Source of the DNA: Adlercreutzia caecimuris B7
Lineage (GTDB): Bacteria; Actinomycetota; Coriobacteriia; Coriobacteriales; Eggerthellaceae
DNA: 64,000 nucleotides
Assembly: GCF_000403355.2 (NCBI RefSeq)
Contig: NZ_KE159646.1
Span: forward strand, 2,159,561-2,223,560
Direction of reading: 5' to 3'
Made by a program: the position numbers and the translations under genes. Positions 51,621 to 64,000 of this stretch are shown in pieces; the first letter of the stretch is position 1, and each line of letters starts with the position of its first letter. The notes beneath the pieces are model-generated. The model saw only the letters and a list, made by a program, of their open reading frames with translations, had not been told where the DNA came from and did not search any database.

Positions 51621-54416
51621 CTATTCCTCAGCCGCTTCGACATCTCCCTCGTCGCCGTCGATGTCGTCGATGGCCAAGGATCCGTCGGTGCTCTCCTCGT
51701 CCAGCAGGTCAAGCTGGTTCTCGTCGGCGGGGCCTTCCTTCTTGGCCTTCTTCTTGCCCGTGGAGGAAATGGCCACGGCGCAAACCTTGTCCTTGTCGGC
51801 CACGTTCATCACCTTCACGCCCTGGGTGGAACGGCCAAGCTCGGAGATGCCCTTCACCGGAGTGCGCACGATGACACCCTCCTCGGATACGATCATGATC
51901 TCGTCGTCGGCGCCGACGATCTTCATAACCGCAAGCAAGCCCTTCTTGTGAGTCATGGTAATGGTGTACACGCCCTGGCCGCCGCGATGGTGCTCGGGGT
52001 ATTCCTCGATCTTCGTGCGCTTGCCATAGCCCTTCTCGGTGATCACGAACAGGTCGGTGCCGGGGCGGGCAATTTCCATGCCGAGTACGTGGGCATCGGC
52101 GGGCACGTTCATGCCGCGCACGCCCATGGTTCCGCGGCCCATGGCGCGGGCCTCGGACTCGTCCCACAGAATGGCCTTGCCGGCAGAGGACACCATGATG
52201 ACCTTCTCGCCCTTGGCCACGCGCTTCACCGAGATGAGCTCGTCATCGTCCTTCAAGTTGATGGCGATGAGCCCATCGCGGCGAGTGCGGTCGTACTGGT
52301 CCATGGAGGTCTTCTTCACGTTGCCCTGAGCCGTGGCGAACATGAGGAACTCCTCGGCGGGAAAGTCCTTCGTGGCGATGACGGCCGAGATGGACTCGCC
52401 CTTCTCCAAAGGAAGCAGGTTCACGATGGCCGTGCCGCGGGCATGGCGGCTGGCCTCGGGAATCTCGTACACCTTCAGGCGATACACCTTTCCCTTGGTG
52501 GAGAAGAACAGCATGTAGGAGTGGGTGGAGGCCACGAACAGGTGCTCCACAAAGTCGGCGTCCTTCAGGTTCACGCCCTGCATGCCCTTGCCGCCGCGCT
52601 TCTGCTGGCGGTAGGTGCTCACGGGCAGGCGCTTGATGTAGCCGGCCTTGGTCATGGTGACGACCATGTTCTCCTCGGCGATGAGATCTTCCACCTCGAT
52701 ATCCTTCGCCTCACCGGTGATGCGGGTGCGGCGGGGATTGCCGTACTTCTTCTTGATCTCCAGCAGCTCGTCCTTGATGACCTGCTTCAGCAGGCTCTCG
52801 TCGGACAGGATGCGCTTGTAGTAGGCGATCTTCTCGCGCAGCTCGGCCAGCTCTTCCTCGATCTTCTCACGCTCCAGTCCGGTCAGGCGGCGCAGGCGCA
52901 TCTCCAAGATGGCGTTGGTTTGCTTCTCGGAGAGCCCAAAGCGCTCGGTCAGGCGCGCGGCGGCTTCCTTATCCGTTTGGGACGAGCGGATGATCTGGAT
53001 GACCTCGTCGATGTTATCCAGCGCGATGATGTAGCCCTCGAGGATGTGCTCGCGCTCCTCGGCCTTGGCCAGCTCGTAGCGGGTACGACGGGTGACGACG
53101 TCCTTCTGGTGCTCGATGTAGTAGTGGAGGATCTCCTTGAGCGACAGCACGCGCGGGGTGCCGTTCACCAGGGCCAGCATGTTGGCGCCGAAGCCCACCT
53201 GCAACTGGGTGTGCTTGTACAGCTTGTTCAGCACCACCTGCGGAATGGCGTTGGACTTCAAGTCGATGATGATATCGATGCCCTTGCGGTCGGCAGCGTC
53301 GTGGATGTTGCTGATCTCGGGCAGCTTCTTGTCGCGCACGAGCTCGCCGAGCTTCTCCAGCAGGCGCTTGCGGTTCACCTGGTAGGGAATTTCCTTCACC
53401 ACGATAGAGGAGCGGCCGTTCTTCTTCTCCTCGATCTCGCACTTAGCGCGGATGGTCATGTTGCCATGGCCGGTCTCGTAGGCATCTAAAATGCCCTTCT
53501 TGCCCATGATAAGGCCGCCCGTGGGAAAGTCGGGGCCGGGCATGACGGCCATGAGCTCCTCGGTGGTGCACTCAGGGTTGTCGATCATGAGGCAGGTGGC
53601 ATCGATGGTCTCGCCCAAGTTGTGGGGCGGGATGTTCGTGGCCATGCCGACAGCGATGCCGTTGGAGCCGTTGACCAGCAGGTTCGGGAAACGGGCCGGC
53701 AGCACCGTGGGCTCTTGCAAGCTCTCGTCGTAGTTGGGCTGGAAATCAACGGTTTCCTTGTCCAGGTCGCGCAGCAGCTCCATGGCCGGCTTGTCCAGGC
53801 GGGCCTCGGTGTAACGCATGGCGGCGGCGCTATCGCCGTCGATGGAACCGAAGTTGCCGTGGCCGTCGATCAGCGGCAGGCGCAGGCTAAAGGGCTGGGC
53901 CAGGCGCACCATGGTGTCGTACACAGCGCTGTCGCCATGGGGATGGTACTTGCCGATCACGTCGCCGACGGTACGGGCCGACTTCATGTGCGGCTTGCTC
54001 GGCGTGTAGCCCGATTCGTTCATGGCGTACAGGATGCGGCGGTGCACCGGCTTCAGGCCGTCGCGCACGTCGGGCAGGGCGCGGGACACGATAACGGACA
54101 TGGAATATTCCAGGAAGGAGGTCTGCATCTCCTTGCCGAGAAACGCCGCGCGCACCGTGGTTCCCTCGCCGCCGTTGGCCCCCTCGATGATAGAGCCGTG
54201 GGGGTTCGGCATGTCCACCATCATAGAGCGAGCGCGCTCCTCCTCGGAAACGGCGTGCTCCTCATCCAGGGTGGAAGAGGCCGAGGCAATCTCGGCATCC
54301 TCGTCGCCCTCGTCGTCGGTGTCGACCTCTTCGGCCAGGTACAGCGCGTCCTCTTCGGCGGCCTCTACCCCGGACTGCTCGTCGGCGTCGAAGTTCTCGT
54401 CTTCAAAATCTGCCAT
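51621..54416 (-). CDS. gyrA: DNA gyrase subunit A
   Basis: A 931-residue breakage-reunion subunit that introduces negative supercoils with GyrB. About 80 extra acidic residues precede the conserved start ([19 protein letters not shown]). The active Tyr is in [10 protein letters not shown]. The quinolone region reads [13 protein letters not shown], with the sensitive-type Ser and Asp. The GyrA box QKRGGKG and the six-bladed C-terminal DNA-wrapping domain follow, ending in an acidic tail. It lies 11 bp after gyrB, in one operon. Confidence 0.98.
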
Positions 54417-54427
54417 TTAGGTTCTCC

Positions 54428-56386
<1,959 letters not shown>

Positions 56387-56538
56387 CTACATAGAAAATG
56401 CGCCCGATGCGAGCGCTGACTGAACGTCGATTATATCATGGCTAACCAATCAAACATACCGTTGTTTCAAAAAGAGGTCTGAGAATGGCTTGTATGGCGC
56501 TGTTTAAGGGGTAGTTTTAATCTCTTATGGGGAAAATA

Positions 56539-57678
56539 TCATATTTCCACTGCCTGCGGTTTGTAGGGCAGCTCAACCACGTTTGCGCGGGAAAGCATAT
56601 TTTCGTCGAAATAATCAAGGTTCGCAGTAGTGATAAACGTTTGGCTTCCCCGCTCCATCGCCTCCACCAGTGCCTCTCGGCGCCGGCCGTCCAGCTCACT
56701 CATCACATCATCAAGAAGAAGCACGGGCTTCTGATCGAGGATTTCCTCGATCACTGCCGCCTCGGCGAGCTTGTAGGCGAGCACAATGGAACGTTGCTGG
56801 CCCTGACTCGCATACAGTGAGGCGTTCTTTCCGTCAAGGAGAAAGGTGATTCCGTCGGCGTGGGGGCCAACAAGAGCGCGAGCACGACGACGCTCCTCGG
56901 CCGCGCGCGCCTCGAGCGCCGCAGATAAAGAAGCGCGGGCCTCGTCACGCGTGAAGGTTCTTGCTCGAACCCCATCACACAATGAGTCAATGTCAGCTGA
57001 GGCCCACGAGGGAGCGTATACCGTCTCAAGCAGCTCGCGGCCACCCGATATCTGCCGATACTTCTCGCTCATTGGGCCCTGCAGGCGAGCAAACAGCGCG
57101 GCACGGTAGCACGTGAGCTGCGCGCCCACTGTAACGAGCATCTCATCAATAGCGGCGACCAGCGCCGAATCGGCATCGTCCTTCAAGAGTCGATTCTTAT
57201 GCCGAACCACCTTCTCGTAGTCGCGGCGAACCGTGTGAAAATTCTTGTTCACCTGCGATCCCAGTGTATCTACCGCCGTCCGGCGCGCCGTCATCGGCCC
57301 TTTCACCAACTCTAGGTCGTCAGGGGTGAAGATGACTGAGGGAACGAGCCCTTTCAGATCCGCCGAGCGCTTTGCCTTGCCGTTGAGACGGTACTTTCGC
57401 GCCTTTTCATCTAAAAGCAACTCGACGGTCAGGTCGCGATTGCCGTCAGATACCCGCGCCTCCAAGCGCGCTGAGTCGCAGCTATGGCGAATCAGGTGCT
57501 CGGCGGTGCTATGGCGAAACGATGTCAGCGCAGTAAGCAGCTGAACCCCTTCGACAATATTGGTCTTTCCGATTCCGTTCTCCCCGACGAACACCGTGAT
57601 GTCTCCCAGGTTCGATAGATGCAGCTGGTCGTAATTGCGAAAATTCCGAAATGTCAGCTGCTCCACTCTCAGCGACAT
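56539..57678 (-). CDS. recF: DNA replication/repair protein RecF
   Basis: A 379-residue SMC-like ATPase that loads RecA at gaps. Walker A (FVGENGIGKTNIVEG), ABC signature (ASQGQQRSIVLAYKLAE), Walker B (KPVLLLDDVMSELD) and the late D-loop/His region (QTFITTANLDYF) are all intact. It starts 84 bp after dnaN and precedes gyrB, the usual origin-side order. Confidence 0.97.
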   Translation of the reverse strand: MSLRVEQLTFRNFRNYDQLHLSNLGDITVFVGENGIGKTNIVEGVQLLTALTSFRHSTAEHLIRHSCDSARLEARVSDGNRDLTVELLLDEKARKYRLNGKAKRSADLKGLVPSVIFTPDDLELVKGPMTARRTAVDTLGSQVNKNFHTVRRDYEKVVRHKNRLLKDDADSALVAAIDEMLVTVGAQLTCYRAALFARLQGPMSEKYRQISGGRELLETVYAPSWASADIDSLCDGVRARTFTRDEARASLSAALEARAAEERRRARALVGPHADGITFLLDGKNASLYASQGQQRSIVLAYKLAEAAVIEEILDQKPVLLLDDVMSELDGRRREALVEAMERGSQTFITTANLDYFDENMLSRANVVELPYKPQAVEI

Positions 57679-57762
57679 TTCTCAGCCGATCTTCCGTTGG
57701 AATGACTGAGGCAAAGGGCAACTCCACAGATGACAAGGAAGCGTTCCACGTGAAACATATTC

Positions 57763-58863
57763 TTAGGAAATGCGCACCGGCATGACGAGATAGAGGAAAT
57801 TCTCGGGCGCGAGGGCGCGGAAGATGCCGGGCTTGAGGGAAGATTGCACCTCAAGGTAAACCTCGTCAGTGGCGATGGATCCGAGGCCGTCCAGCACATA
57901 GGCATAGTTGAAGGCAATTTCCACATCCTCACCCTCCACTGTACAAGCGAGAATCTCCTGGGCACTACCCACATCCTGAGAGGCGGCGGTCAGCTGCGTG
58001 GTCTGGGAGGCAGCATTCAAATCGAATCGCACCGGCGAAGCGTTCGAGCCGAGCAAGGAAGCGCGGCGCACACTAGCCACGAGCTTATCCACTTCAATAG
58101 TAGCGCGCGTCGTATAGGAGTCGGGCAGAAGCTGCTTGTAGTTGGGGAAATTACCCTCAATGCGACGATTGATGAACACGGTATCCTCGCATGTCACCAC
58201 AATCTGATTGTCAGCCAGAGCGAGGGAGACGGGAGATTCGGTCTTGGGCAGCGATGCAATCTCCGAAAGGAACGAACCCGAGATGACCGCCTGGAACTCG
58301 TCGGCTGTCGCGTCGGGCAGGGCAGCATCGGTGATGGCAAGCCGATACGAGTCGGTCGCCACCATGCGCAGCACCCCGCCTTCCAGGGTGATGAGCACAC
58401 CGGTGAGGATGGCGCGACTCTCGTCTTTCGACACAACACGCGATACGCGCTTCACCATCAAGGAGAACTGCTGGAACGGGATCTCAATACGCTGATGAGT
58501 CTCCACGCGGGGGAAGCCGGGGAAATCCTCGGCATTCAGCGCACGGATGGAGAACGACGAGGTGTCGCAGGTAATAAACGCCTGATCTTCGGTGGCCTCA
58601 ACATGAACGGCGGCGTCAGGCAAGTTCTTCACAATCTCGGAGAACAGCTTGCCCGGGACTACCGTCCGCCCCTCCTCCTCGACAAGCGCTGCCACAGAGT
58701 ACTGGATAGAGAGCTCCAGGTCGGTCGCCTGCAAAACGATCTTGTCACCTGTCGCCTCGATGAGGATGCCCGACAAGACCGGCAAAGTTGAACGGGTCGA
58801 CACACCCTTCAACACGATCGAGAGGGCATTGGCAAGCTCGGTGCGGTTGATACTCAGCTTCAC
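57763..58863 (-). CDS. dnaN: DNA polymerase III sliding clamp (beta subunit)
   Basis: A 366-residue ring subunit of three similar domains (about 1-120, 130-245, 250-366) that tethers polymerase to DNA. Landmarks: MKLSINRTELANALSIVLKG, STLPVLSGILIEA, VVPGKLFSEIVKNLP, the hydrophobic cleft MVATDSYRLA, and the C-terminus YLVMPVRIS. The GTG start at 58863 has AAGGAAAGG upstream. It is the first gene of the leftward dnaN-recF-gyrB-gyrA block and faces the origin. Confidence 0.97.
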   Translation of the reverse strand: MKLSINRTELANALSIVLKGVSTRSTLPVLSGILIEATGDKIVLQATDLELSIQYSVAALVEEEGRTVVPGKLFSEIVKNLPDAAVHVEATEDQAFITCDTSSFSIRALNAEDFPGFPRVETHQRIEIPFQQFSLMVKRVSRVVSKDESRAILTGVLITLEGGVLRMVATDSYRLAITDAALPDATADEFQAVISGSFLSEIASLPKTESPVSLALADNQIVVTCEDTVFINRRIEGNFPNYKQLLPDSYTTRATIEVDKLVASVRRASLLGSNASPVRFDLNAASQTTQLTAASQDVGSAQEILACTVEGEDVEIAFNYAYVLDGLGSIATDEVYLEVQSSLKPGIFRALAPENFLYLVMPVRIS

Positions 58864-59642
58864 GACAGAACCTTTCCTTGGAGACGGGAAAATGCACACC
58901 ACCGTAGTGATCTCACGAGAGTAAAGTGGCGATATTATACCGCTGCGCTTGCCGACTGCAGCATTCAAAGAAGAGGTTCCTCGGCAGAAGCATGGGCGCA
59001 CACCAACGTGTCGATCACCCTCGTGGAGGGACGAAGCAAAGTTTCCACTTACCCAATGGTGGAAACTGTGGAAAACTCCACCTTTTCCCAGAACGAGGCG
59101 GGGGATGCGCGGTTTTCAACCTCAGTGGAAAACATCCTTCCTTGCCCACAGCAGCTAAAGAGCCGTTTAGAACCTTCTAAACCCACTTATAAAACCACCT
59201 GTGATCAGGTAAAATATATTCTCTTCATATTCAGGGATCGAAGTCTCATACCAATGTTCGCTCTTTACCCACACACTCTCTAAACGAGAGGAACTTCCTG
59301 TCAGATTCAACCAGAAAAGACAAGTTATCCCCTTTTGTCAAGAATTTTCTTCAAAGTTTTTCACCATGATGTCCTTTGCTCTCCCTCTGAGAATCCCCTT
59401 TTATTCAATGTTTTCCACTTTCGTTGAATTTTTTGTTCATAACTATGAATCTTGGTGAAAAACGCAGGTGAGTTATTGAAGAGTTTTCAACAAATACTGA
59501 ACTAATGGTGGATTATTCACCACTGGCCATGAAAACAGCTGATAAGTTGCGTGCATTGCCTTGAAACACGGTACAATGGCGGTGAATTTCTTCCGAAAAA
59601 CATTGAATACGAAACGGACACCACGGAACGAGATTGAACACC
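58864..59642. other. oriC: Probable chromosomal origin of replication (oriC)
   Basis: A 779-bp gene-free, AT-rich region between divergent dnaN and the GHKL protein gene. DnaA-box-like 9-mers (consensus TTATCCACA): TGTGGAAAA 59067, AGTGGAAAA 59124, TTATCCCCT 59325, TTTTTCACC 59357, TTTTCCACT 59411, GGTGAAAAA 59454, TTATTCACC 59513. None is a perfect Escherichia coli box; the common form here is TT(T/A)T(C/T)CACC/T. AT-richest parts are 59205-59250 and 59330-59450, candidates for unwinding. Assignment rests on gene context and box density. Confidence 0.75.
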
Positions 59643-60734
59643 ATGGAAACAAAGCCCCCTTCGCAGAGCCCCAACGCCCCCTTCGACTATTCGTTCGTCG
59701 ATACGGTGGGAAACATCGCTATCTACGACGACCTGCTCAGCGGCCCGCGGGTCGTCAAAGTGCAACCGGCGGACACGGCAACTTACATCGAGTCTCTCGC
59801 CAGCGGAATTTACGAGTACGCCCGCGAGGCTGGGGGGTCTATCCCTTATACGGTCATCCGCGAGGTGTCGGAGAACTTCATTCACGCTCAATTTAAGGAA
59901 GTGCTCGTCACAATCCGAGATCATGGTAACACCATCAGTTTCGCCGACCATGGGCCTGGCATCCCCTCGAAGGAGAAAGCCCAGATGCCCGGATTCTCCT
60001 CCGCAGTTGAGCCGATGCGAAACTACATTCGCGGAGTAGGATCGGGGCTCCCCATCGTGCGGGAGTATCTCGAATCCTCTCACGGAACCATTACTATTGA
60101 GGACAATCTGGGGACGGGGGCCGTCGTCACGATCAGCCTCGCCCGAGGAGCCGACGAGGAGCTCGAGGAGCCCTTCGACAAGAGCGGCCTCGGCCGGCAA
60201 GATCCGTTCCAAGCTCCAATCCAGGCTCCGATGACCCCCTACGGTGCGCCGCAGGCCGGTGTGCCCATTCCGGAAGCCAGCGGCAGCGTGTTCCCCGCGC
60301 AAACAGTGGCGCCGGCCTATCCCTATAGCGCGCCGGTCACTTGCCCGCCGACATCTCCCTACCCCGCAGCGGGCAATCCCTATGGCACGGCAGCGGCGCA
60401 GCCTTACCCCCAGGCCACCTACCCCCCGACCGCTGGACAACCCTACGGTGCGGCACCCTACCCCGCACCCTACCCCCCTTACGGCAGCGCGCCGGCTTAC
60501 GGCCAGGCGCCCCCAATGCCCGCACCGGCGCTGAACGAGAAGGAGCGACTGTATTTGAAGATGCTCGCCTCTGAAGGGCCGCTCGGACCCACCGAGATGG
60601 CGAAGCTCACTGACGGCAAGCCAAATACCGTATTCTACGCCTTCGAACGGCTCGAGCAAGCGGGGCTGATTCAAAAGATGGGCAAGCAGCGATCGCTGAC
60701 GCCCTACGGCCAGCAGGTAGCCCAGAACCTGTAG
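59643..60734 (+). CDS. GHKL ATPase-domain protein with Pro/Tyr-rich linker and C-terminal winged helix
   Basis: A 363-residue protein. Residues about 45-165 are a complete histidine-kinase-like ATPase fold: N box IREVSENFIHAQF, G1 FADHGPGIPS, G2 RGVGSGLPIVREYLE, G3 GTGAVVTISL. There is no phospho-acceptor His domain. Residues about 185-290 form a low-complexity Pro/Tyr/Ala/Gly linker (YPYSAPVTCPPTSPYP and similar). The last 70 (LNEKERLYLKMLASEGPLGP through PYGQQVAQN) look like a MarR/wHTH DNA-binding domain. It sits between the origin and dnaA, 84 bp before dnaA and co-directional. A role in origin or dnaA control is inferred. The ATG at 59643 is preferred; a TTG at 59634 is possible. Confidence 0.8.
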   Translation: METKPPSQSPNAPFDYSFVDTVGNIAIYDDLLSGPRVVKVQPADTATYIESLASGIYEYAREAGGSIPYTVIREVSENFIHAQFKEVLVTIRDHGNTISFADHGPGIPSKEKAQMPGFSSAVEPMRNYIRGVGSGLPIVREYLESSHGTITIEDNLGTGAVVTISLARGADEELEEPFDKSGLGRQDPFQAPIQAPMTPYGAPQAGVPIPEASGSVFPAQTVAPAYPYSAPVTCPPTSPYPAAGNPYGTAAAQPYPQATYPPTAGQPYGAAPYPAPYPPYGSAPAYGQAPPMPAPALNEKERLYLKMLASEGPLGPTEMAKLTDGKPNTVFYAFERLEQAGLIQKMGKQRSLTPYGQQVAQNL

Positions 60735-60818
60735 CAACGGCCCGAGCGTTTGTTTTTGCTAGAATAAACTGCACGCGTCTTGCCAAGCAGGCAGACAGCA
60801 ACGGTAAAGGGAACAAGT

Positions 60819-62483
60819 ATGGACAGCGAGAAACTCAATGAACAGTGGAGGGCCATCAGCGCCCAAGTGAGCTCTTATGCCGACATGGACGCCTCCCAGG
60901 TGAGCGCCTTTTTCTCGCGTCTCGAACCCCAGGCTATGAGTGACTCCTTCCTCATGTTGACCGCCGACAACGATTTCATCAAGTCGTGGGTCGAACAGCA
61001 TTACGTCGAGCCCATCCAACGAGCGCTGCGCGACTTGACGGGCGTTCAGTTCGTCGTGGCCGTAGCAGTGGACCCGACCCAAGAAGCCCGAAAAGCCGCA
61101 TCGGCAACCGTAACCGCGCCCGCCGCCGGCAACGCGGCTACGGCACCGGCGGCAGGTGCGGTTACGACACCGGTAGTGCCCCCCGCCCCGCCCGCAACGG
61201 GCGCGGCCGCAACACCGGCAGTGCCCCCCGCGCCGGCGCCGGGCCAGGCAGGGGCGCTTGGGCGGGCAACACCCCTCCCACCCTCTTCCCCTATGGGCAC
61301 CGCTCCGCTGTCGACAGCCCCCCAACCTTATATGCCCCCCTACGATGAAGCGGCCGTGATCGACCATTACTCTCCTCAACCAGCGCCAGAAGCCGCAACA
61401 GGGGGCGCCTCAAGACCCAGCTGCTCCACTTCCTCGTTGACCTTCGGCAACTTCGTCATTGGGGATTCAAACCGCATGGCCTACTCCATGGCCGTCGAGG
61501 TAGCCGAATCCCCTGGCCGCAGCCCGCTGAACCCCCTGTTCATCTATGGAAAGAGCGGATTGGGCAAAACTCATCTCATGCGGGCGATTCAAAACTACAT
61601 TGAGGAAACACGGCCGGGCATGCGCACGGTGTACGCCGACTCGGCCGACTTTCTCTCCAAGCATGTCGAGGCGGCGCGGGCTCACGACCGAGAGAAATCG
61701 AGTTACAAGGATTTCAAGACCTACTACGAGGAAGCGGACGTACTGCTGATCGACGACGTACAGTACCTGCAGGGGAAAACCCAGACCCTCGATATCGTCT
61801 TCCAGCTGTTCAACACCCTCACCGCCCAGGGGAAGCAGGTTGTCCTCTCGGCGGATCGCATGCCGAAGAACATCGGCATCGACGAGCGCTACTATTCGCG
61901 TTTCTCCGCTGGCGGAGTGATTGACATCCAGCCACCCGAGATCGAAACGAAGCTCGGAATTGTCAAATCGTTCGCCGACGAGTACAGCCGGAGCGAGGGG
62001 TTGGGCAACTTCACCCTGGCCAGCGATATCCAGATGTACATCGCCGAGAATTCGAGCTCCAACATCCGCGAGTTGAAAAGCGCCGTCACCAAGGTCATCT
62101 ACCAGATGATGCTGTTCAACCGTGCAGACATGACCGTCGAGGAAGTGCGCACGCTCCTGGAGAATCACTTTTCGGGGGGACCGTCGCGGAACCTCTCCAT
62201 TGAGGACATCCAGCGTGCTGTTGAATCGTTCTTCAAGGTGAGCCGAAGTGACCTCGTGGGCCCGAAGCGTTCCCGATCGGTCGTGTACCCACGTCAGATC
62301 GCTATCTACCTATGCCGGCAGCTCCTCGATCTGCCCTATAACGATATCGGAAAGAAGTTCAACCGAGACCACTCCACCGCCATGCACTCGGTAGCCAGCG
62401 TCGAGGAGATGCTGAAGGACAACCGAGGCGTGCAGGAGGAGATTGAGGCACTCCAGAAGATCATTAGCGAATACAGTGAGTAA
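60819..62483 (+). CDS. dnaA: Chromosomal replication initiator DnaA
   Basis: A 554-residue initiator that binds DnaA boxes and melts the origin. Domain I is residues 1-85, domain II is a long Ala/Pro-rich linker (about 85-205), domain III is AAA+ with Walker A (FIYGKSGLGKTHLM) and Walker B (VLLIDDVQYL), and domain IV ends with the DnaA signature NRDHSTAMHSV (slight change from the usual DHTTVMHA). The ATG at 60819 follows AAAGGGAAC. It reads away from the origin in the same direction as rpmH, opposite to dnaN. Confidence 0.98.
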   Translation: MDSEKLNEQWRAISAQVSSYADMDASQVSAFFSRLEPQAMSDSFLMLTADNDFIKSWVEQHYVEPIQRALRDLTGVQFVVAVAVDPTQEARKAASATVTAPAAGNAATAPAAGAVTTPVVPPAPPATGAAATPAVPPAPAPGQAGALGRATPLPPSSPMGTAPLSTAPQPYMPPYDEAAVIDHYSPQPAPEAATGGASRPSCSTSSLTFGNFVIGDSNRMAYSMAVEVAESPGRSPLNPLFIYGKSGLGKTHLMRAIQNYIEETRPGMRTVYADSADFLSKHVEAARAHDREKSSYKDFKTYYEEADVLLIDDVQYLQGKTQTLDIVFQLFNTLTAQGKQVVLSADRMPKNIGIDERYYSRFSAGGVIDIQPPEIETKLGIVKSFADEYSRSEGLGNFTLASDIQMYIAENSSSNIRELKSAVTKVIYQMMLFNRADMTVEEVRTLLENHFSGGPSRNLSIEDIQRAVESFFKVSRSDLVGPKRSRSVVYPRQIAIYLCRQLLDLPYNDIGKKFNRDHSTAMHSVASVEEMLKDNRGVQEEIEALQKIISEYSE

Positions 62484-62535
62484 GCGGTGCGTAGAAGGCG
62501 AATTCACACTGGAAAGGGTGGGCATAACTCCGGTT

Positions 62536-62544
62536 TTATCCACG
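62536..62544 (+). promoter_or_regulatory. DnaA box downstream of dnaA
   Basis: TTATCCACG, one mismatch from the consensus, lies 53 bp beyond the dnaA stop in the 406-bp gap before rpmH. It could be a second origin half or an autoregulatory site. The rest of the gap, apart from the rpmH promoter, shows nothing else recognisable. Confidence 0.45.
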
Positions 62545-62821
62545 ACGGGAAAGAGGGCGACGGGCCGGATTTCCCAAAATAGTGGATTGCAGGTACAGGA
62601 AACGAACGGGTTTGGCACATACTGTTTCCTTGATCGACCTGCGAGAACAACAAGTTCTCAGCCAATCCACCATGCTTATTACCACCACTATCCTTTTAAG
62701 AAAGAAAAGGAGCAAAAGCTATCCCTCTCGATGTGAGTGTTCGGGTAAGGTGGAAGACGTTACATCGACACGTTCGCCGACGGGGTTTAATAGCCTTTAC
62801 GATTTCACCGAGAGTTCCCCG

Positions 62822-62849
62822 TTGACAGGGTTTGTCTGTGGTATATAAT
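62822..62849 (+). promoter_or_regulatory. Strong sigma-70 promoter of rpmH
   Basis: TTGACA at 62822-62827 and TATAAT at 62844-62849, both perfect consensus, with a 16-bp spacer, 40 bp before the rpmH start codon. Expected to drive rpmH-rnpA-yidD-yidC. Confidence 0.85.
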
Positions 62850-62889
62850 TTGAAAGCTATTCTTTGAACCATGAAAGGGAAAGAAAACA

Positions 62890-63024
62890 ATGAAACGCAC
62901 CTATCAACCGAACAAACGCAAGCGCGCCAAGTGCCACGGCTTCCGTGCCCGCATGTCCACCAAGGGCGGCCGCGCTGTTCTCGCTTCCCGTCGTGCTAAG
63001 GGGCGTAAGCGTCTCACCGTCTAA
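62890..63024 (+). CDS. rpmH: 50S ribosomal protein L34
   Basis: A 44-residue basic ribosomal protein ([14 protein letters not shown] through [10 protein letters not shown]), full length and typical of the family. It begins the rpmH-rnpA-yidD-yidC operon; GGGAAAGAAAA precedes the ATG. Confidence 0.98.
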
Positions 63025-63038
63025 GGAAGAAATCAGGC

Positions 63039-63422
63039 GTGGAAACTATCACCTCCAGCACTGAAATCTCCCAGCTCTTTTCCTCTGGTAAGCGGATCAA
63101 GACACCGTATGTGACGTTTATCGTAGGAGAGCGGGCCTCGGACACACAACGAGGTGCAGACGAGCAACACGACCAGTGCGGTCGTGTTGCTTTTATTGCA
63201 GGAAAGAAGTTGGGCAATGCAGTGTGGCGCAATAGTGCTAAACGGCGTATGCGTGCCCTCTGCGGCGAGATGGGGGGTCCCTGGCCGGGAAAAGACGTTA
63301 TTTTTCTCGCGCGGGGAGCAGTGTGCAGGGCGTCTTATCAGGATGTTTCACGAAGCTGCGAGCAGGTGCAGCGCCGATTGGAATCCTGTAGGGAGGACCG
63401 TGCCCATGAAGAAGGTCGTTGA
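63039..63422 (+). CDS. rnpA: Ribonuclease P protein component
   Basis: A 127-residue protein subunit of RNase P, which matures tRNA 5' ends. The RNR motif region reads [19 protein letters not shown], and [16 protein letters not shown] is the N-terminal RNA-binding strand. The start is a GTG at 63039, 14 bp after rpmH, with AAGGAAGA upstream. Its 3' end overlaps yidD by 17 bp. Confidence 0.95.
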
Positions 63423-63648
63423 GGTTGCAAAGAAGGTTCCGACCTTATTCGCCGTAGGCCTCATCATGTTCTACCGTATGGCTATATCCCCCCTGCTTCC
63501 GCCTGCCTGCCGGTTTGTTCCTACCTGCTCGGAATACGGCCTGATCGCTTTTAAGCGCTATGGTTTCCGCAAAGGGTTTGTGCTGACGGTGAAACGGATA
63601 CTAAAATGCCGCCCCGGCGGCCCCTGCGGATACGATCCCGTGCCGTAG
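63406..63648 (+). CDS. yidD: Membrane protein insertion efficiency factor YidD
   Basis: An 80-residue small membrane-associated protein that aids YidC-dependent insertion. The signature [19 protein letters not shown] and [13 protein letters not shown] are intact. The ATG at 63406 overlaps the end of rnpA and follows GGGAGGA. A GTG two codons upstream is an alternative start. Confidence 0.95.
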
Positions 63649-63677
63649 GTCGTCGGATTAAGAAGGGTTGAAACACT

Positions 63678-64000
63678 ATGTGGGATATCTTCAAGGACTG
63701 GATCTTCGATGTCATTCAGTTCTTCTACAATTTCTGCCATGACTGGGGCCTCGCGATTATCATCGTGACGATCATCTTCCGCATCATTGTGGCCCCCCTG
63801 ATGCATAAGCAGGCGAAGTCCAATTACGCTATGCAGAAGGTTCAGCCGAAAATCCAGGCTCTAAAGGATCGCTTTCCCGATGACCCCACGCGCCAGTCTC
63901 AGGAGATGCAGAAGATCTACGCCGAGATGAAGTTCAACCCTCTTGCTGGTTGCTTGCCCATGTTGCTGCAGATGCCGATCTTCATCGCTTTGTTTCAGGT
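63678..64000 (+). CDS. yidC: Membrane protein insertase YidC (5' part, cut by window end)
   Basis: The first 107 codons of YidC/Oxa1, which inserts membrane proteins. An N-terminal region with a membrane span (LAIIIVTIIFRIIVAPLM) is followed by the cytosolic helical hairpin (KVQPKIQALKDRFPDDPTRQ) and the start of the conserved NPLAGCLPMLLQMPIFIALF span. ATG start with GAAGGGTTG upstream, 29 bp after yidD. It continues beyond position 64000. Confidence 0.95.
   Translation, partial: MWDIFKDWIFDVIQFFYNFCHDWGLAIIIVTIIFRIIVAPLMHKQAKSNYAMQKVQPKIQALKDRFPDDPTRQSQEMQKIYAEMKFNPLAGCLPMLLQMPIFIALFQ

Follow-up and report, generated by a model that had tools for sequence, protein, structure and literature searches.

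Several described systems share parts with the protein studied here. DIP2311 (3lmm), which we take to be a COG2865 member with the layout AlbA_2, HATPase_c_4, winged helix, combines a GHKL ATP-binding fold with what is presumably a winged helix-turn-helix (wHTH) following it. The N box of SpoIIAB follows the E-xxx-N pattern, which is found in those GHKL enzymes whose Glu serves as general base. In the regulator Csa3, a ligand-sensing domain precedes a C-terminal wHTH. With respect to initiation control, the systems available for comparison are Hda/RIDA, SeqA, YabA, Soj, and SirA; to our knowledge, control of the replication start is largely unknown outside a few model bacteria.

Here, we analyze a GHKL-wHTH gene that adjoins dnaA in a stretch of 64,000 nucleotides from Adlercreutzia caecimuris B7, called the window below. 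An earlier note on the window, made from the sequence, had proposed that the gene encodes a GHKL ATPase with a Pro/Tyr-rich linker and a C-terminal wHTH and without a phospho-acceptor domain, that it lies between oriC and dnaA, and that no described replication regulator is known to have such an architecture. In the available passages of PMC4255298, the actinobacteria-specific genes discussed are absent from Coriobacteriales, and the GHKL-wHTH gene goes without mention.

A GHKL domain and a winged helix in one protein encoded beside dnaA

Gene names read from translations place gyrA, gyrB, recF, and dnaN on the minus strand (51621-59001), and beyond an AT-rich gap the plus strand carries the GHKL-wHTH gene, dnaA, rpmH, rnpA, yidD, and yidC. 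The stop of the GHKL-wHTH gene is separated from the dnaA ATG by 84 nt. Both neighbors encode long Pro/Ala-rich stretches (60144-60527 in the GHKL-wHTH gene and 61100-61260 in dnaA, read from translations). No RNA element of Rfam was matched in 56000-64000. A defense or phage origin of the gene was considered and rejected; PHROGs and PADLOC gave weak, generic GHKL or wHTH matches only.

Table 1. Features of the GHKL-wHTH locus and their positions in the window
Feature	Position	Strand	Basis or remark
AT-rich intergenic region, dnaN (-) to gene (+)	58867..59642	.	Probable oriC and promoter region
DnaA-box-like site TTTTCCACA	59067..59075	-	Pattern match
DnaA-box-like site TTTTCCACT	59124..59132	-	Pattern match, placed by reading
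DnaA-box-like site TTTTCCACT	59411..59419	+	In 12-nt block 59410-59421, identical in 8/8 genus members
DnaA-box-like site TTTTCAACA	59484..59492	+	Pattern match, placed by reading
Imperfect palindrome GGTGGATTATTCACC	59507..59521	.	Weak candidate operator; 8 genus members
Block AAACACG-n-TACAAT	59564..59577	+	Probable -10 region of operon promoter
GHKL-linker-wHTH gene	59643..60734	+	363-aa protein, ATG 59643 to stop 60734; ORF, translation, orthologs; alternative TTG start 59634
GHKL ATP-binding domain, residues 23-167	59709..60143	+	Pfam HATPase_c, AF2 domain model, fold matches
N box, residues 74-84 (EVSENFIHAQF)	59862..59894	+	E74, N78, H81 invariant in 99/99 sequences
G1 box, residues 102-106 (DHGPG)	59946..59960	+	D102, G104, G106 in 99/99
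G2 box, residues 131-136 (GVGSGL)	60033..60050	+	G131, G135 in 99/99; G133 in 98/99
Pro/Ala/Tyr-rich low-confidence linker, residues 168-295	60144..60527	+	Composition, pLDDT
C-terminal wHTH, residues 296-363	60528..60731	+	Relatives' Pfam matches, AF2, superposition
Predicted recognition helix, residues 327-339	60621..60659	+	AF2 helix; clade-wise conservation
dnaA	60819..62483	+	Probable operon partner; ATG 60819, with a TTG in frame ahead of it at 60780

The domain search proposed in the earlier note returned HATPase_c (PF02518) on residues 69-166 with an E value of 1.1e-11 and 45.5 bits, over the cut-off of 26.4. The same model matched 35/35 family members at E≤0.01 and scored over its cut-off in all eight distant relatives scanned. 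Ten residues (E74, N78, H81, D102, G104, G106, G131, G135, G148, and G159) are invariant in 99/99 nonredundant sequences (135 minus 36 redundant), and the same ten GHKL columns are invariant in 59/59 sequences of alignment A2, which overlaps the 99-sequence set. A further conserved motif, (R/N)-x-A-x-Y-D ... P, marks the N terminus of the domain. An N box with invariant E-xxx-N speaks for true ATP turnover rather than a dead fold. Modeled alone with AF2, the GHKL domain reached a pLDDT of 81.9 and a pTM of 0.80, and histidine-kinase catalytic domains took the top Foldseek ranks for the full model and for the domain alone. The second, transducer domain of GHL enzymes such as GyrB, MutL, and Hsp90 is lacking; a low-confidence linker and the wHTH follow the GHKL domain instead.

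The full-length AlphaFold model, built with 35 sequences (mean pLDDT 71.7, pTM 0.47), has a moderately confident GHKL domain and a confident wHTH (block-mean pLDDT 92-98 for residues 301-363) with the low-confidence linker between them, where block means are mostly 44-55. The 128 linker residues include 32 Pro, 24 Ala, 12 Gly, and 12 Tyr; across the 99 sequences, linker length ranges from 9 to 227 aa with a median of 25. The C terminus of the window protein scored 20.6 bits with Pfam MarR, under the cut-off of 24.6, and the domain superposes on MarR-family chains with Z about 13 and an rmsd of 0.9 Å over 68 residues. Among 35 relatives, HTH_IclR matched 28 and MarR 26 at E≤0.01. Of the eight distant relatives, four (L112, L121, L128, and L140) had a wHTH over cut-off (TrmB, IclR, HTH_5, or DeoR), three (L117, L051, and L100) had one under cut-off only, and L144 had no wHTH match at E≤0.001. 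Together, the Pfam matches, the AlphaFold model, and the relatives bear out the architecture proposed at the outset. In one ortholog (L101:5989-6669), the frame leaves the family after the GHKL domain and holds no wHTH, which could reflect a frameshift, an assembly error, or a real loss of the wHTH.

The predicted recognition helix is conserved by clade. Among 35 sequences not belonging to the window's order, its residues are S 94, T 94, A 85, Y 82, and R 100%, and in 12 sequences of Coriobacteriaceae/Atopobiaceae a T-W-S-R pattern is present in 100%. The window's own group, Eggerthellaceae-and-other (47 sequences), has a variable helix, and the helix of family f42 (5 sequences, counted apart) is different. 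Near-fixed residues within clades predict a conserved DNA target for each such clade.

Comparison with described GHKL and winged-helix proteins

When the Foldseek candidates were realigned, DIP2311 was the best structural match to the GHKL domain (Z 14.6, rmsd 3.6, 155 residues), with the next best at Z 10.9; a second realignment gave Z 15.1. In Foldseek's own ranking, 3lmm stood 33rd for the model and was absent from the best 50 for the domain alone. The GHKL fold is common to both proteins. Unlike the layout that we assume for DIP2311, the window protein has no AlbA_2 match at E≤10, and AlbA_2 is absent among the 25 of 33 families listed for 35 members. It also gave no match to the HATPase_c_4 presumed for the DIP2311 type, having canonical G1 and G2 boxes and a PF02518 match instead, and its gene lies beside dnaA. 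A search of its own genome with PF13749 found five other HATPase_c_4 places, four of them over cut-off, and the GHKL-wHTH gene was not among them. These five places (L183-L187, C1 2046195-2476134) all fall within about 260 kb of the locus in a 2.95-Mb genome. The family profile gave the five proteins 25.1, 25.0, 6.8, 4.9, and 0.5 bits; most of the score came from the wHTH, and two of the proteins were faintly similar in the N box. Because these scores are low and come mostly from the wHTH, any kinship with the HATPase_c_4/DIP2311 kind is remote. With regard to the earlier note's remark on architecture, GHKL plus wHTH is not entirely new, as DIP2311 is presumably a precedent. No description of a dnaA-paired GHKL-wHTH gene and no experiment on a family member was found in the literature searched, which comprised neither subscription papers nor preprints.

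SpoIIAB and RsbW share with the window protein a compact single GHKL domain (fold Z 10.4-10.9). SpoIIAB 1tid aligned with Z 10.9 and an rmsd of 3.0 over 123 residues, tied with histidine kinases (Z about 10). The window protein differs from this group in its extra wHTH and in having no known sigma partner; PF13581 (HATPase_c_2) had no match in it at E≤10, and a search of its own genome with that model gave two other places only. With histidine-kinase catalytic domains, it shares the HATPase_c fold and motifs, but it carries a DNA-binding domain and, as had been claimed, no phospho-acceptor domain: HisKA/DHp had no Pfam match in it at E≤10 and was not among the families listed for 35 relatives. 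The only invariant His is H81, inside the N box. The wHTH fold is that of MarR, IclR, and TrmB proteins, here fused to a GHKL domain, and in the AF2 monomer model no dimerization helices accompany residues 296-363, the only ordered part there. CARF-wHTH regulators such as Csa3 gave weak matches through the wHTH part only, and CARF is not a GHKL fold.

The gene adjoins dnaA in all informative loci

The survey covered 126 distinct loci after removal of ten duplicates; a Flavobacterium locus with a weak match (L104) was excluded from all counts, and L101 was included here and excluded from the alignments and the oriC count. Seven loci end too soon to be informative, 3-368 bases downstream of the gene and with no dnaA on them. 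Three of the seven (L112, L115, and L117) are chromosome-sized contigs that end there, and their records probably begin at dnaA. In the remaining loci, dnaA adjoins the gene in 119/119, on the same strand in 117. We conclude that the linkage between the gene and dnaA is far beyond chance.

From the stop of the gene to the open frame holding dnaA, the distance is at most 544 bases in 117/117 same-strand loci and at most 90 in 102/117. The estimated gap to dnaA itself has a median of 43 nt (≤20 nt in 43/117 and ≤150 in 107/117), and in 39 loci outside the window's order it ranges from -53 to 82, with 27 at -4 to +20 and five at -4; these gaps follow a simple start-codon rule, and single values may be off. 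The 39 loci lie mostly outside the class, with a few within it, such as L049, L051, and L059. From this spacing, we infer that the gene and dnaA form an operon. Open frames of at least 50 aa in the gap were looked for in the two inverted loci described below and in the 15 same-strand loci whose distance to the dnaA frame exceeds 90 bases; seven (L036, L073, L075, L076, L090, L097, and L099) had one, and there may be a small gene between the GHKL-wHTH gene and dnaA in these.

In two loci from Coriobacteriia/Coriobacteriaceae MAGs, dnaA adjoins the gene and is inverted (L097:7521-9008 and L099:7075-8565), and co-transcription is therefore not obligatory. On its far side, the gene is flanked by dnaN in some genera, the window's included, and by rpmH-rnpA-yidC in most other loci.

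The flanks of the block formed by the intergenic region, the gene, and dnaA are swapped between these two arrangements (51621-63998; L062-L103). The first has dnaN-recF-gyrB divergent from the block; the second, which is that of most other loci, has rpmH-rnpA-yidC divergent and dnaN after dnaA.

The family extends beyond Coriobacteriia and can be lost

Within the class, orthologs were found in 341/396 genomes at E≤1e-8, in 294/314 good genomes, and in 127 of 153 genera. In a phylum sample searched with the family profile at E≤1e-12, 161/396 genomes matched. Strong matches (E 5.3e-37 or lower) numbered 157, of which 119, counted from the listing, fall outside the class; four weak ones (G459, G499, G545, and G654), with E values from 9.1e-13 to 5.5e-14, were tallied separately. 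The family thus extends beyond Coriobacteriia, within Actinomycetota. Families f30, f35, f36, and f47 had no member among the 161 matches at this threshold.

Of the 55/396 class genomes without an ortholog match, 20 were examined for dnaA. In 17 of these, dnaA was absent too (E≤1e-20), so that the origin contig is probably missing. The other three (G161, G226, and G329), all of one genus, have dnaA, and a profile search found no ortholog within 10 kb around it; eight other members of this genus are listed with the gene. We conclude that some genomes can do without the GHKL-wHTH gene and that its function is not always needed, since these three genomes keep dnaA without it. In the loci of these three (L150, L151, and L152), whose genus belongs to Eggerthellaceae, rpmH and dnaA stand without an intervening GHKL gene, a natural loss. 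Mean p-distances over 52 loci (0.61 for the GHKL-wHTH protein, 0.58 for DnaA, and 0.63 for DnaN) show that the protein diverges about as fast as these core proteins.

Origin region and promoter

Of 25 DnaA-box-like sites in 264 kb of chromosome, 4 lie between dnaN and the gene, in the 59-kb bin, which is the densest 1-kb bin; the cumulative GC-skew minimum of the same stretch falls at window position 62389. Because of box density and skew minimum, a placement of the gene between a putative oriC and dnaA is reasonable for the window. Across 77 loci, near-duplicates included, the density of DnaA-box-like sites was 3.55 per kb upstream of the gene (254 sites, 71.6 kb), 0.20 per kb within the gene (14 sites, 71.4 kb), and 2.33 per kb in the dnaA-dnaN gaps (41 sites, 17.6 kb; 1.52 per kb without L111). 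In the 50 loci countable on both sides, the number of sites was higher upstream than downstream in 43, equal in 4, and lower in 3. The upstream stretches compared are, however, the longer ones, and some take in rpmH/rnpA coding sequence if only rnpA or yidC was found. Since the dnaA-dnaN gaps are also rich in such sites, not every locus has its obvious origin upstream of the gene. In L111, which we presume to be Rubrobacter-like, the 525-base dnaA-dnaN gap holds 15 sites versus 3 upstream of the gene; this cluster probably makes that gap the origin, with the gene on the opposite side of dnaA. The absence of conserved linkage in relatives, which the earlier note had named as refuting its reading, was not observed, since every informative locus keeps the linkage. 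Given the L111 cluster downstream of dnaA, the constant partner of the gene is dnaA rather than oriC.

A genus footprint of eight sequences had its best-kept blocks at 59410-59421, 59564-59577, and 59507-59521. In the second of these, which we take as the probable -10 region, TACAAT is identical in 8/8 genus members and AAACA-G in 8/8, with its C in 7/8. A consensus promoter scan found no promoter at 59001-60900. In the palindrome at 59507-59521, the left half is conserved better than the right, and because of this poor right half we keep it as a weak lead only. Upstream k-mers in four clades were dominated by DnaA-box-like sequences, and once these were masked, no k-mer stood far above shuffles across clades as a candidate operator. 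A strong "motif" (ATGAAGCGTAC) in Coriobacteriaceae/Atopobiaceae was dropped, as it reads as the start of the rpmH coding sequence.

Discussion

On the sequence evidence, the GHKL ATP site is intact, a winged helix is present, and adjacency to dnaA is near obligate. From these features, the reading that we favor, and to which we give an even chance, is that the protein would be an ATP-gated DNA-binding regulator of the dnaA operon, of initiation, or of both, in many nonmodel Actinomycetota. The GHKL-wHTH protein would act as a dimer, in which ATP binding or hydrolysis in the GHKL domain would shift the seating of two tethered winged helices on DNA. The DNA bound would be the promoter/origin region upstream of the operon, and dnaA expression, and possibly also access of DnaA to that region, would be tuned to the ATP state of the cell; the main effect could be on dnaA transcription or directly on initiation. 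The elements of this reading, from co-transcription and dimerization to ATP-gated binding of DNA and an influence on initiation or dnaA expression, could as readily hold as fail. In favor of an ATP-gated regulator, we count the survival of the linkage when the other flank is swapped (dnaN versus rpmH), the short gaps to dnaA, the near-fixed recognition-helix residues within clades, divergence at a rate close to that of DnaA and DnaN, and the density of DnaA-box-like sites upstream of the gene compared with inside it (3.55 versus 0.20 per kb). Counted against it are the lack of a cross-clade k-mer after masking, the loose recognition helix in Eggerthellaceae-and-other and the different one in f42, the loss of the gene in three genomes, the inversion of dnaA in two loci, the frame departure in L101, and the many DnaA-box-like sites in dnaA-dnaN gaps.

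Strict adjacency and, outside the window's order, very short or overlapping gaps are also typical of gene pairs whose products interact, and the GHKL domain might accordingly act on DnaA or the initiation complex, remodeling or inhibiting it, with the wHTH bringing the protein to the origin. The invariant E74 and N78, which suggest real ATP turnover, would fit such a partner of DnaA. Distances between the proteins track DnaA across the 52 loci (Pearson 0.70), but they track DnaN better (0.82; DnaA with DnaN, 0.69), and the correlation with DnaA is for this reason no sign of a specific interaction. We hold a direct partnership with DnaA to be unlikely. An ordinary transcription factor of an unrelated regulon, placed beside dnaA by inherited accident, would agree with the failure to find an operator upstream of dnaA and with the fact that the gene can be lost, and operon position need not mirror a regulator's target. 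However, adjacency in 119/119 informative loci from many families, with the flanks exchanged, is hard to explain without selection, which makes an accident of inheritance distinctly unlikely.

A fold near that of SpoIIAB (Z 10.9 over 123 residues) and of histidine-kinase catalytic domains (Z about 10), together with the HATPase_c match over cut-off, would suit a protein kinase resembling SpoIIAB/RsbW or histidine kinases, with some partner as its substrate and the wHTH as a docking module. This is quite improbable in our estimate: no phospho-acceptor domain is among the Pfam matches, PF13581 did not match the gene in its own genome, and the flanking genes identified, which were the genes searched for, are dnaA, dnaN, recF, gyrB, rpmH, rnpA, and yidC.

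Returning to an ATP-gated regulator, the gene is kept beside dnaA across many branches of Actinomycetota and is therefore a promising candidate regulator, so far undescribed, of DnaA or the replication start. That the protein is an ancient replication control, a second ATP-sensing switch that many Actinomycetota beyond the best-studied groups encode with DnaA and that sets when or whether the origin fires, is plausible, though we rate it somewhat below even. If it is, the mechanism of initiation control would be unlike Hda/RIDA, SeqA, YabA, Soj, or SirA. If ATP gates DNA binding, the energy state of the cell would be linked to the supply of DnaA by a mechanism that we have not found described. 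Several sampled families (f30, f35, f36, and f47 among them) gave no match at 1e-12, and the gene may therefore have to do with how origin layout differs across the phylum. Found beside dnaA in Eggerthellaceae as well as in other classes of the phylum, the gene offers a concrete, testable entry point to the control of initiation.
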